In this document: one piece after another, positions 1-38,248 of the stretch
How the letters are laid out: each line of letters opens with the position of its first letter
Numbering within the stretch: the stretch's first letter is position 1
Origin: an uncultured Flavobacteriales bacterium
GTDB lineage: Bacteria; Bacteroidota; Bacteroidia; CAIKAF01
DNA length: 38,761 nt
Assembly (NCBI GenBank): GCA_903837495.1
Contig: CAILUT010000003.1
Location: forward strand, 1 to 38,761
Direction: 5' to 3'
Translations under genes and position numbers: made by a program
The notes under the pieces: model-generated
Database searches by the model: none
What the model was told of the DNA's origin: nothing
The model's input: the letters and a program-made list of their open reading frames with translations, nothing else

Positions 1-82
1 AAAGAGCGACGCGAGGAGCTCCTTTTGGGCCTTGCCCGCCCCGCCTTGCCCCGCGGATTAGCCCGGAAAGCCCGGCTGCCGC
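1..82 (-). repeat. Structured ~140-bp intergenic repeat, copy 1 (cut by window edge)
   Basis: This is the 5' part, read on the minus strand, of the repeat also found at 2489-2627, 29646-29786 and 33449-33588. Read on the minus strand it starts with GCGGCAG (82 to 76), continues with the shared CGGGCTTTC block, and reaches the apical loop motif GCTCCTCGCGTCGC at 19 to 6. The other half lies outside the window. It is GC-rich and non-coding. Confidence 0.7.
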
Positions 83-2452: not shown

Positions 2453-2488
2453 TTCGGGCTTTTCGTGATTTGAATGAGGTTTTTTTGT

Positions 2489-2627
2489 GCGGCAGCCGGG
2501 CTTTCTCCGGTAGTCCTCGGTTGCCGGTGGCTGGCCCAGCGGGTTTGCGGGGGCTCCTAACGTCGCCTCCGCACCACGCGGGCCAGGCACCGCCACCCTG
2601 TGGGCTACCCGGTTCAATCCCTGCCGC
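2489..2627 (+). repeat. Structured ~140-bp intergenic repeat, copy 2
   Basis: A complete copy bounded by the terminal inverted repeat GCGGCAG (2489-2495) and CTGCCGC (2621-2627). Inside, CCGGTAGTCC (2507-2516) can pair with GGGCTACCCGG (2602-2612), CTGGCCC with GGGCCAG, and TGCGG (2546-2550) with CCGCA (2569-2573). The apical loop holds the family motif GCTCCTAACGTCGC (2553-2566). The copy sits between two convergent genes, 36 bases past one stop codon and 17 past the other. Confidence 0.8.
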
Positions 2628-2644
2628 CAAACGAAAAGCCGCAT

Positions 2645-29538: not shown

Positions 29539-29645
29539 GGAAAAAGTTCAACAAAACCCCAAAGAATTGTTAAGTTCTCTATGTTAATAACTGATTTCGG
29601 GTTTAAAGAACTTGAATTTACTGGGATTTGTTTTGATTTTTAGGG

Positions 29646-29786
29646 GCGGCAAACGGGCTTTCAGGCTTAGTCCGCGGGGGCTGCCGGGCAGGCTAAGTAC
29701 CCAAAGTAGCTCCTAAAGTCGCTCTTTGGGTCCATACCCTGCTGCCGGAAGCCCCCTTGCGGGCTAAGCACTTCAATCCCTGCCGC
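29646..29786 (+). repeat. Structured ~140-bp intergenic repeat, copy 3
   Basis: A complete copy bounded by GCGGCA (29646-29651) and TGCCGC (29781-29786). GCTTAGTCCGC (29665-29675) pairs with GCGGGCTAAGC (29759-29769) apart from one G-T pair, GGGGGCT pairs with AGCCCCC, and CCCAAAG (29700-29706) pairs with CTTTGGG (29724-29730). The apical loop is GCTCCTAAAGTCGC (29709-29722). It lies 30 bases past the stop of the DUF4384-like gene. Confidence 0.85.
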
Positions 29787-29816
29787 GGCCGCATCAAAGC
29801 CTGGAGCCCTTAAAAT

Positions 29817-30722: not shown

Positions 30723-32399
30723 TTATTGAACCGTCCAAGATTCCCAACGTCCTTCAATGTTGGGGGGGAATAAAATTTGGGGTTGCTGCATTTTGCCTTG
30801 CCGAGCCGCTTCTTTATCGACCTCGGTTTGGGCATACTTAAACAAATCTCCATAGCGGGCCGAAGTGCCTTGGTTTTGAATTCCTTTTAACAGGAAATAG
30901 GTTAAAAATCCATGTTTCTTTTCTTGAAAAACTGCACTGCTTTGGCTTCCACTGGAAGAGGTCAACACCACCATGTTTTCGGGAATGGCTCCTGCTTTTG
31001 GGCGAACTCGAATGCCTTTTTTGGCCACCAACTCTTCGTTCCTTGCCCCACCTGAAAAGCAGGCGTCGAGTACAACGGTGATTTTTTGGGCTTTGAATTT
31101 CGAGAGCTCCTCGTACACTTCTTTTAGGGCGATGCCCATTTCGGGGCGGTCGCCCGAAATGTCAACAGGAATTAGATAAGGGGTTTGGTCGGCGTCCGAT
31201 GGCAAGCCGTGTCCGCTGTAGAAAAAATACAGTTCGGATTGTTCGCCGGTGGCCCGAGCAAGGTTGGAAAGCCAGTCTAAACCGCCCCGCATTTCGCCGG
31301 AGGTGGCGTTGCGCAGCAATTTAAGGTGTCCTGCTTCTACTCCAAAGCTTTGCTCTAAATATTGAGCAAAAATCAGGGCGTCGTTTTCGGCATAATCTAC
31401 GTTCACCGCAGTGCTGAGTCCGGTGCGGCGGCTGGCGTAATCTTCGTTGCCAATGATTAAGGCTAATCGGTTGGGATTGCTTTTGGATGTTTTCGGGATG
31501 TTGCGGTCCACATCGCTTTTAAGCGAGCCTACCTCGATGTTCACCTTTTCTTGGGCCTGGGCTTCTACAACCAATTTTCGTGGCGCGGCCATTTGTTGGT
31601 TCATAGTAAAGCTCTGGGACCAAGATTCGGAATATTTTCCGTACGATTCACGAATGCCCATAGAAACGGGTACGGTAGAGGAACTGTATTTGGCGTTGAT
31701 GATCACCGAGAAATTCAAGTTGCGCGTTTCTCCGGGCAGCAGCTGTGGAATGCGTTGTATTTCCTCTCCAGACAACAGCATGACATTTTCGGGCAATTTA
31801 AAATTGGTGGAAATGTCTTTGGCTACCCCTTGTCCGGTGTTCTGAATCAAAACCTGCAAGTCAAATTGAGCCATGGGTTTTAGAATGCCATCGCCCGACA
31901 GACTAAAATCGGCCACTTTCACAAAAGGCGACTGGAAAGCCCGTGTTTCAACATCCAACGAAAATTCGGGGGGATTAAAACCGTTGGGTTCTTCAATGTC
32001 CACCTTTATCATAAGGGTTCCTTGGGCCGTATTCATGTCGGCTTGAATTGGAATTCGATACTCTGTTGTTCCAGATTTGGCTACCCTTGACAAAGGAATC
32101 CGATTTTCCATTCGGATGCCCTGCATACTTCCTGAGGTTTGGATTCTAGCAATCAAATTTAAACCATCGCCAAATCCTGTGTTTTTAAGCGAAAATTCCA
32201 AATGGCAAAGTTCACGGGCATCAATGGCTTGGTTGCCGTCGGAATCGGTAAACCGAAGCGAACCGTCAACCACCGCCAAAATAGGAGGTTCAATTTTAGG
32301 TTTAATGCTGACCGAAGCCGCAGCACTCATGGCCTTTTTTTGACCGTGCATGCAAGCTATGCTAAACAATAGAAGGAAAAAGGAAAGAAAAGGCTTCAT
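30723..32399 (-). CDS. Secreted caspase-like (C14) protease with N-terminal beta domains
   Basis: A 558-residue exported protein. The start is 32399 (MKPFLSFF), just before a signal peptide that ends near CMHGQ; an earlier in-frame start overlaps the promoter. Residues about 35-265 form two beta-rich, CARDB/NEW3-like domains, judged by NTGFGDG and NTGQGVA repeats. The caspase fold follows: RLALIIGNEDY, then catalytic His397 in FYSGHGLP and Cys447 in LDACFSGG, with TSSSGSQSS after it. Both catalytic residues are intact. It is likely Arg/Lys- or Asp-specific and periplasmic or surface-exposed. It shares a promoter region with a divergent barrel-like gene. Confidence 0.9.
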   Translation of the reverse strand: MKPFLSFFLLLFSIACMHGQKKAMSAAASVSIKPKIEPPILAVVDGSLRFTDSDGNQAIDARELCHLEFSLKNTGFGDGLNLIARIQTSGSMQGIRMENRIPLSRVAKSGTTEYRIPIQADMNTAQGTLMIKVDIEEPNGFNPPEFSLDVETRAFQSPFVKVADFSLSGDGILKPMAQFDLQVLIQNTGQGVAKDISTNFKLPENVMLLSGEEIQRIPQLLPGETRNLNFSVIINAKYSSSTVPVSMGIRESYGKYSESWSQSFTMNQQMAAPRKLVVEAQAQEKVNIEVGSLKSDVDRNIPKTSKSNPNRLALIIGNEDYASRRTGLSTAVNVDYAENDALIFAQYLEQSFGVEAGHLKLLRNATSGEMRGGLDWLSNLARATGEQSELYFFYSGHGLPSDADQTPYLIPVDISGDRPEMGIALKEVYEELSKFKAQKITVVLDACFSGGARNEELVAKKGIRVRPKAGAIPENMVVLTSSSGSQSSAVFQEKKHGFLTYFLLKGIQNQGTSARYGDLFKYAQTEVDKEAARQGKMQQPQILFPPNIEGRWESWTVQ

Positions 32400-32418
32400 A
32401 CAAATAGACTTATTCAAG

Positions 32419-32426
32419 CAAAGGTA
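32419..32426 (-). promoter_or_regulatory. -7 promoter element of the caspase-like operon
   Basis: TACCTTTG on the minus strand is an exact TAnnTTTG match, 19 bases before the ATG at 32399. Confidence 0.55.
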
Positions 32427-32488
32427 CGAACTAATTCCCAAGCTTGAAGGCTAATTTTATGTAATTTCGGCCAATAAATATAGAAAGC

Positions 32489-33394: not shown

Positions 33395-33448
33395 CGGAGT
33401 TGGTGCTTTAGATTCCTTTTGTTTGGTTTTAGTGTTTGAGGCGCCCGC

Positions 33449-33588
33449 GGGCGGGATTGAACACGGTAGCACGCACAGGTGCTAGGCCCTGCCCCGCGTG
33501 GCGCGGAGGCGACTTTAGGAGCCACCGCAAGCCCGCTGGGGCAGCGCCTAGCAACGGCGGACTACCGGTGAAAGCCCGGAACCCGCCC
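33449..33588 (-). repeat. Structured ~140-bp intergenic repeat, copy 4
   Basis: A complete copy on the minus strand, bounded by a 7-bp terminal stem (GGGCGGG 33449-33455 with CCCGCCC 33582-33588). The inner CGGTAG/CTACCG and GCTAGG/CCTAGC stems differ in sequence from the other copies but keep pairing. The apical loop, read on the minus strand, is GCTCCTAAAGTCGC (33522 to 33509). It lies between convergent genes, 7 bases past one stop codon and 54 past the other. Confidence 0.8.
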
Positions 33589-37879: not shown

Positions 37880-38166
37880 CCCAATGCCTTTAGGGGCGTG
37901 TGCCGGCCGGGCATTTTCCTCGTACTGGGATTTAAGTCCAAGTTCAGAAAGGTTCAGGCTATCTACAAAGAGATCAATAAGGCGCACCTCATTGTCGGTA
38001 TCGACATGCTTATTACAGGCAATACATCTCCCACTGATTTCGGGTTTTTCTTTGGATAAATTTCATAAATAAAAGTACCGTTTTGGAGGGGGAAATGGGC
38101 AATAAACAGCTTGCAATTTATTGGCAATTGAAATGTTTAGACGGGGGGGGTTATTAGACAGTCTGA
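37880..38166 (-). mobile_element. Remnant of IS1182-family transposase with element end (right copy)
   Basis: The minus strand holds the N-terminal part of an IS1182-type transposase: ATG at 38066 with MKFIQRKTRNQ, a frame change, then IDLFVDSLNLSELG and ENARPAHAPK, both family hallmarks. It breaks off near 37880, so most of the gene is missing. Upstream is the element end (38067-38166) with an eight-G run and TTATTAGACAGTCTGACG. It cannot encode an active enzyme. The part 38036-38150 is a direct repeat of 36801-36915. Confidence 0.75.
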
Positions 38167-38248
38167 CGTTCAAGTGCAGGCGCTGTTGGGGGATTTTCGG
38201 ACCGCAATTTTTGCCTTACTACTTTATTTCCAAAATTAAACAAATGCC

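Follow-up and report, generated by a model that had tools for sequence, protein, structure and literature searches.

The hairpin at positions 29,644 to 29,790 raises the question of what keeps its arms paired while their sequence changes. The window (the whole stretch of 38,761 nucleotides analysed here) holds four such hairpins, and the first-pass annotation took the matched changes between their arms as selection on structure, with the shared loop as a contact site. We asked whether the changes speak for an RNA or for a repeat of the DNA itself.

A dispersed repeat with a fixed loop

All the stems and loops on which that proposal was built are found in the sequence, the stems differing with their pairing kept. 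The coordinates of the copies and of their parts are collected in Table 1, in which R1 is a covariance model trained on copies from the genome of this window alone (G000, 2.51 Mb). For the reported copy (copy 3), the R1 match shows the interval annotated earlier, 29646-29786, to be a few bases short; a T-rich run precedes the element.

Table 1. Positions of the four elements in the window, of the parts of copy 3, and of two RAYT genes elsewhere in the genome
Feature	Position	Strand	Evidence
Copy 1, truncated at 3' by the contig end	1..84	-	R1 50 bits; window base 1 is the contig end
Loop of copy 1	6..19	-	exact pattern match
Copy 2, in gap between convergent genes	2487..2631	+	R1 143 bits; gene context
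Loop of copy 2	2553..2566	+	exact pattern match
T-rich run immediately 5' of copy 3, typical of most copies	29632..29643	+	flank composition
Copy 3 (reported copy), ~146-nt long-hairpin element	29644..29790	+	R1 match 117 bits, E 3.7e-19; orthologous site occupied in G005 and G002
Copy 3, basal core motif, 5' side, GGGCTTTC	29655..29662	+	near-invariant alignment columns; common to Flavo-1-type elements elsewhere
Copy 3, inner hairpin cassette, limits approximate	29680..29758	+	wholly replaced in G005 at same site; ortholog alignment and mosaic analysis
Copy 3, invariant apical loop GCTCCTAAAGTCGC	29709..29722	+	exact pattern match; pattern counts, alignment of copies, other genomes
Copy 3, basal core motif, 3' side, TTCAATCCC	29772..29780	+	pairs with 5' core across conserved internal loops
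Copy 4, in gap between convergent genes, occupied in G005	33443..33588	-	R1 140 bits
Loop of copy 4	33509..33522	-	exact pattern match
Class-2 RAYT gene with in-frame repeat insertions	G000:C5:48350-49183 (L073 8350-9183)
Class-2 RAYT gene with in-frame repeat insertions	G000:C47 (L331 2505-3491)

The loop is indeed invariant in all four window copies, and it recurs throughout the genome. The loop pattern GCTCCTNNNGTCGC occurs 144 times in G000 (75 forward and 69 reverse; the reversed-pattern control gave 1+1), and each of these loops tips an imperfect hairpin of ~146 nt. The family in G000 comprises at least 144 dispersed copies. Aligned over this length, 56 copies share one layout: behind a T run follow GGGCGG, GGGCTTTC, a box that varies among copies, TCCGC, and an inner stem that is likewise variable, up to the loop; the arms that match them then run back, ending in TCAATCCCTGCCGC. 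The whole forms a single long imperfect rod with conserved asymmetric internal loops. In the flanks, T makes up 59-79% at positions -10 to -5 ahead of the GGGCGG foot.

The distances between core and loop are 54-56 and 48-51 nt in G000 and 53-54 and 48-49 nt (n=4) in G055, a genome from another family. The distances in G001/G004, whose loops are relaxed (e.g., GCTTCTGAGGTCGC), are mostly 54-57 and 46-49 nt (n=12), with the 3' distance read as 38-39 in 5 of the 12 copies, probably through a mis-set anchor. Relaxed loop forms (about GCTYCYNNRGTYGC) in other genomes likewise keep the same spacing from the basal motif. Because the loop is fixed genome-wide and relaxed loops elsewhere stand equally far from the basal motif, a role of the loop in contacting a protein or RNA, as first suggested, is plausible from these comparisons. 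A Shine-Dalgarno-like AGGAG in the complement of the loop was dropped as a candidate because loops with GCTTCY are frequent in other genomes.

Within the genus, the loop pattern was counted 119 times in G002, 92 times in G003, and 144 times in G005. It was absent from G001, occurred once in G004, and was found 0 to 4 times per genome outside the genus. R1, at E<=1e-3, matched 15 of 60 relatives, with 88 matches each in G001 and G004, 84 in G014, 29 in G055, and 52 in G056; part of the weaker matches may be general hairpins. A wide-family model (R2) has few base pairs and scores long copies poorly, and R1 was therefore used inside the genus. A repeat finder run within 2.5 kb did not detect the family, because that interval holds only one copy. 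The combined core and loop pattern had no match in viral contigs, and our literature search found no description of this repeat beyond Flavo-1.

Another repeat of the window, ~270 bp long (~37898-38190), has ~80% identical matches on several contigs in G005, G002, and G004. A gene near copy 3, at 30723-32441 (-), encodes a protein that has a caspase-like peptidase C14 domain and also matches CARDB.

Covariation and exchange of the inner hairpin

For copy 3 the predicted folding energy is -83.8 kcal/mol for RNA (z -6.5) and -45.1 for DNA (z -5.7), and no shuffle equals either value. RNAalifold on the 56 copies returned 36 pairs, 32 of them with changes on both sides. Standard pairs fill 92.6% of the cells, compared with 70.5% in shuffled alignments and at most 59.3% when the structure was slid, and the structure beats shuffles and slides on every measure used. 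We tested covariation with a home-made, R-scape-like procedure whose null distributes the substitutions of every column over a tree built with FastTree. In this test 22 of the 36 pairs covary at E<0.05, although the null assumes a tree and recombination or cassette exchange violates that assumption. The 12 column pairs of the alignment with the highest scores are all pairs of the structure. The expectation that covariation would exceed the phylogenetic background was thus borne out.

Among variable pairs we counted 1230 Watson-Crick, 22 G·T, and 30 A·C cells, i.e., no excess of G·U. An RNA with a long evolutionary history would be expected to tolerate G·U, and neither strand shows such tolerance. 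On the strand annotated in the first pass, some columns with conserved G·T are present; the pair statistics favour neither this strand nor the one given by Rfam.

A comparison with G005, which is syntenic with the window at ~82% identity over most of its length, shows how the inner stems change. The ortholog figures, like those on gene context below, cover stretches of G000 amounting to ~0.4 Mb. Each of the seven sites that we compared carries an element in G000 as well as in G005. At the site of copy 3 the two genomes have matching outer arms, down to a private box (AGGCTTAG/CTAAGC), whereas the inner hairpin differs completely on both arms. The inner hairpin of G005 at this site is a GCCGAAAGGCTGG cassette, which is present, nearly identical, in 14 sampled G000 copies elsewhere. 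The inner part is also replaced at C5:24950 and C5:48112, where the element is inverted between the two genomes as well, and it is partially replaced at C5:12607. The mosaic extends to the family: among 80 copies, outer and inner identity correlate at only 0.21; 56 pairs of copies have an inner identity >0.92 but an outer identity <0.80, and 45 pairs have an outer identity >0.93 and an inner identity <0.65.

Since G005 keeps the outer arms and carries a high-copy inner cassette, cassette replacement accounts for much of the change of stems with pairing kept. Paired change of this kind requires no compensatory mutations. The outer box, however, varies in a paired fashion among copies that share one inner cassette, and so exchange of cassettes alone leaves the box unexplained. 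Maintenance of the hairpin is demonstrated; because copies swap their inner hairpins, matched changes in the arms do not by themselves prove an RNA function. Of the step from compensatory change to selection on structure, the covariation above background stands; it does not establish that an RNA structure is under selection, cassette exchange being a source of covariation too. This route to covariation without compensatory point mutations matters for the assessment of further dispersed "RNA families" that were found by covariation.

No clean empty site was found, and we therefore infer movement of whole elements from their dispersal only. At three places (L071 5481, L220 11112, and window 36907) synteny between G000 and G005 is lost no more than ~200 bp from an element. 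Several contig ends fall inside elements; either recombination or an assembly effect may lie behind these breaks and ends. A ~1.4-kb segment, located at different places in G000:C5 (L072 11091-12473) and G005:C3 (L206 5091-6473), is 97% identical between genomes that share ~82% elsewhere, and looks like a recent transfer or movement. In G000 this segment begins ~100 bp from an element.

Elements lie behind genes in G000

In the sampled ~0.4 Mb of G000, elements were counted against the gaps between genes called by a simple ORF picker: 19 elements for 42 convergent gaps, 26 for 147 co-directional gaps, and 4 for 42 divergent gaps. Copies in co-directional gaps take both orientations to the genes (16 sense and 10 antisense). 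Sense copies start a median of 27 nt past the stop codon, 14 of 35 at a distance of 7-15 nt. In G000 the copies are located mostly directly behind genes, at their 3' ends. With a copy in nearly half of the sampled convergent gaps, any influence of the element on the ends of transcripts would extend across the genome. A small sample of 32 copies taken from genomes other than G000 (18 in co-directional, 10 in divergent, and 4 in convergent gaps) did not show the bias toward 3' ends and convergent gaps; the bias may therefore be specific to the genus, and we dropped convergent-gap bias as a rule for the whole family. A minority of copies form inverted pairs 45-130 bp apart (L080 5759+/5957-, G001 C14, G004 C1, and G005 C16 and C17).

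Comparison with Flavo-1

An Rfam search of the window at the gathering score had no match. The window copies (L011, L013, and L014) gave no match to Flavo-1 (RF01705) up to E 5, only chance-like matches, mostly to microRNA families. The gathering score of Flavo-1 (42 bits) was not reached in G000, where the best score, 29.3 bits, came from separate short elements. Short Flavo-1-like elements are located at C1:23189-23257, C23:11699-11761, and C18:29339-29401; a further small GC-rich hairpin immediately precedes each of them.

Of 60 relatives, 13 have Flavo-1 matches above threshold, and some of these contain tens of copies. At several loci R1 and Flavo-1 share coordinates on opposite strands: G012 C142 (40.6 bits), G029 (33.7 bits), G014 C220 and G055 C3 (32.3 and 31.2 bits, full length, alignment 1-76), and G055 C38 (28.7 bits). 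The coincidence of two independent models argues for homology of the core. From these matches we regard the element as related to Flavo-1, longer, and on the opposite strand; as the window copies lack a Flavo-1 match of their own, we do not count it as a member. Both are multi-copy, dispersed, found in Bacteroidota, and flanked by a T run and an A run, and they share the basal core, which lies on opposite strands in the two. The window copies, however, are longer: Flavo-1 has no counterpart of their inner hairpin or of their invariant apical loop.

Rfam classes Flavo-1 as an sRNA, and Weinberg et al. (PMC2864571) rated it a probable RNA that is not cis-regulatory. Since 2010 it has stood as a probable RNA, and the present data link it to a repeat that behaves as an interspersed DNA element. 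In the Flavobacterium psychrophilum transcriptome, Flavo-1 lies sense or antisense indifferently and often outside transcribed regions (PMC9723704).

Possible nature of the element

From the comparison of copies and genomes, we rate the element as a lineage-expanded long relative of Flavo-1 that behaves as a DNA repeat of the REP/BIME type with exchange of inner cassettes; an RNA function is conceivable. The reading we find somewhat probable is that of an interspersed, hairpin-forming DNA element that acts like REP/BIME sequences by placing a strong hairpin at transcript ends. Its basis is the dispersal of the copies, the fixed length of the rod, the conserved basal motif and loop, the persistence of sites between species, the replacement of cassettes, and, in G000, the position at gene 3' ends. 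A single protein or complex would recognize both conserved ends on DNA that is extruded or single-stranded. Cassettes would spread, and arms would stay matched, through ectopic recombination among copies, and the hairpin, once transcribed, could shield the upstream mRNA in either orientation. A point against this reading is the conserved G·T columns, which would suit an RNA on the strand annotated first.

As in the REPs and BIMEs of enterobacteria, G000 contains many dispersed intergenic palindromes near the 3' ends of genes; high copy number, inverted pairs, and mosaic structure are also shared. Enterobacterial REPs often lie 1-20 nt past genes, and those within 15 nt can lower translation (PMC12306157). 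In contrast to their 20-40 nt, however, the present element measures 146 nt; its foot, a T run and GGGCGG, carries no GTAG or CGTC tag, and no general RAYT partner was found. A long imperfect hairpin with conserved extrahelical bases and a variable stem is also typical of integron attC sites. Unlike in attC sites, the apical loop is conserved here, and copies are dispersed and not arranged in cassette arrays.

Doubtful, though conceivable, is a dedicated chromosomal DNA device, in which two recognition sites ~50 nt apart on a free helix would be read as a folded hairpin by a Bacteroidota factor at transcript ends, the inner helix being exchanged as a unit between loci and the outer arms staying with the locus. 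We consider it unlikely that the copies are a multigene family of structured non-coding RNAs whose loop binds a protein or RNA, i.e., the Rfam view of Flavo-1. The 22 covarying pairs, the conservation of loop and rod length across families, and the published assignments would agree with it; the copies, however, lie in both orientations to genes, have no more G·T than A·C, and change their arms by cassette exchange, and the F. psychrophilum data give neither a consistent strand nor consistent transcription. The element might also be a quasi-palindrome of no function, in which mutation (template switching or ectopic conversion between arms) and not selection keeps the pairing. The scarcity of one-sided intermediates, the replacement of whole inner cassettes, and the 33443 site, with a G·G mismatch in G000 and A·A in G005, would fit such a process. 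Correction between arms, however, would erase the asymmetric internal loops and the apical loop, both of which are retained by nearly all copies and by other families, and the rod keeps a fixed length. We regard this explanation, too, as improbable. A strong hairpin behind stop codons recalls an intrinsic transcription terminator; however, the T run precedes the hairpin instead of following it, and no terminator was called at the copy 3 site on either strand, which makes termination a very remote explanation.

Search for a mobilizing enzyme

Compatible with the REP/BIME-like reading, although itself quite unlikely, is mobilization of the elements by an HUH-type tyrosine transposase (TnpA/RAYT). 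A search of G000 with PF01797 had no match. This was a failure of sensitivity, because a class-2 profile built from G002/G055 found two RAYTs (Table 1), which score as REP_Tyr_transpos below the cut-off. Element copies lie within a few hundred bp of each of them, at C5 and C47. In G073 a Flavo-1-type element (L318 2056-2139) starts right after the stop codon of a RAYT, and atypical flanking structures have been reported for subclass 2.6 RAYTs of Bacteroidetes (PMC6006769), which we counted in favour of a RAYT as mover. Among 30 class-2 RAYT loci, 3 have an element by R2, a model that is weak on long copies; more are found with R1 inside the genus. Elements are also near all five TnpA genes in G001/G004. 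Subclass-1.2 TnpA, promising as a general partner on these five, was ruled out on 80 loci across Bacteroidota, near which we found only two elements, both >1.4 kb away.

Against an enzyme of this kind, G005, G014, G024, and G030 carry elements and have no PF01797 or class-2 match; G005 has 144 loop copies and neither enzyme type was found in it. In addition, the reading frame of the C5 RAYT holds four GTAGAGACGC palindromes. These GTAG-type REPs, located within the gene, point to being the partner of this RAYT and are its likely cognates. GTAGAGACGC occurs 17 times in the ~0.4-Mb G000 sample, where 0.8 are expected. Like the element, GTAG-tagged REPs are dispersed palindromes of the same genome, but they are short, differ in sequence, and occur inside the RAYT gene itself. 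The neighbourhood of elements and RAYT/TnpA genes may reflect shared tolerant gaps.

The RAYT gene of G073 also contains GTAG palindromes. Between L073 8061-9369 and the corresponding L211 5827-6256, the C5 RAYT gene is mostly gone in G005, and the element and the RAYT remnant are inverted.
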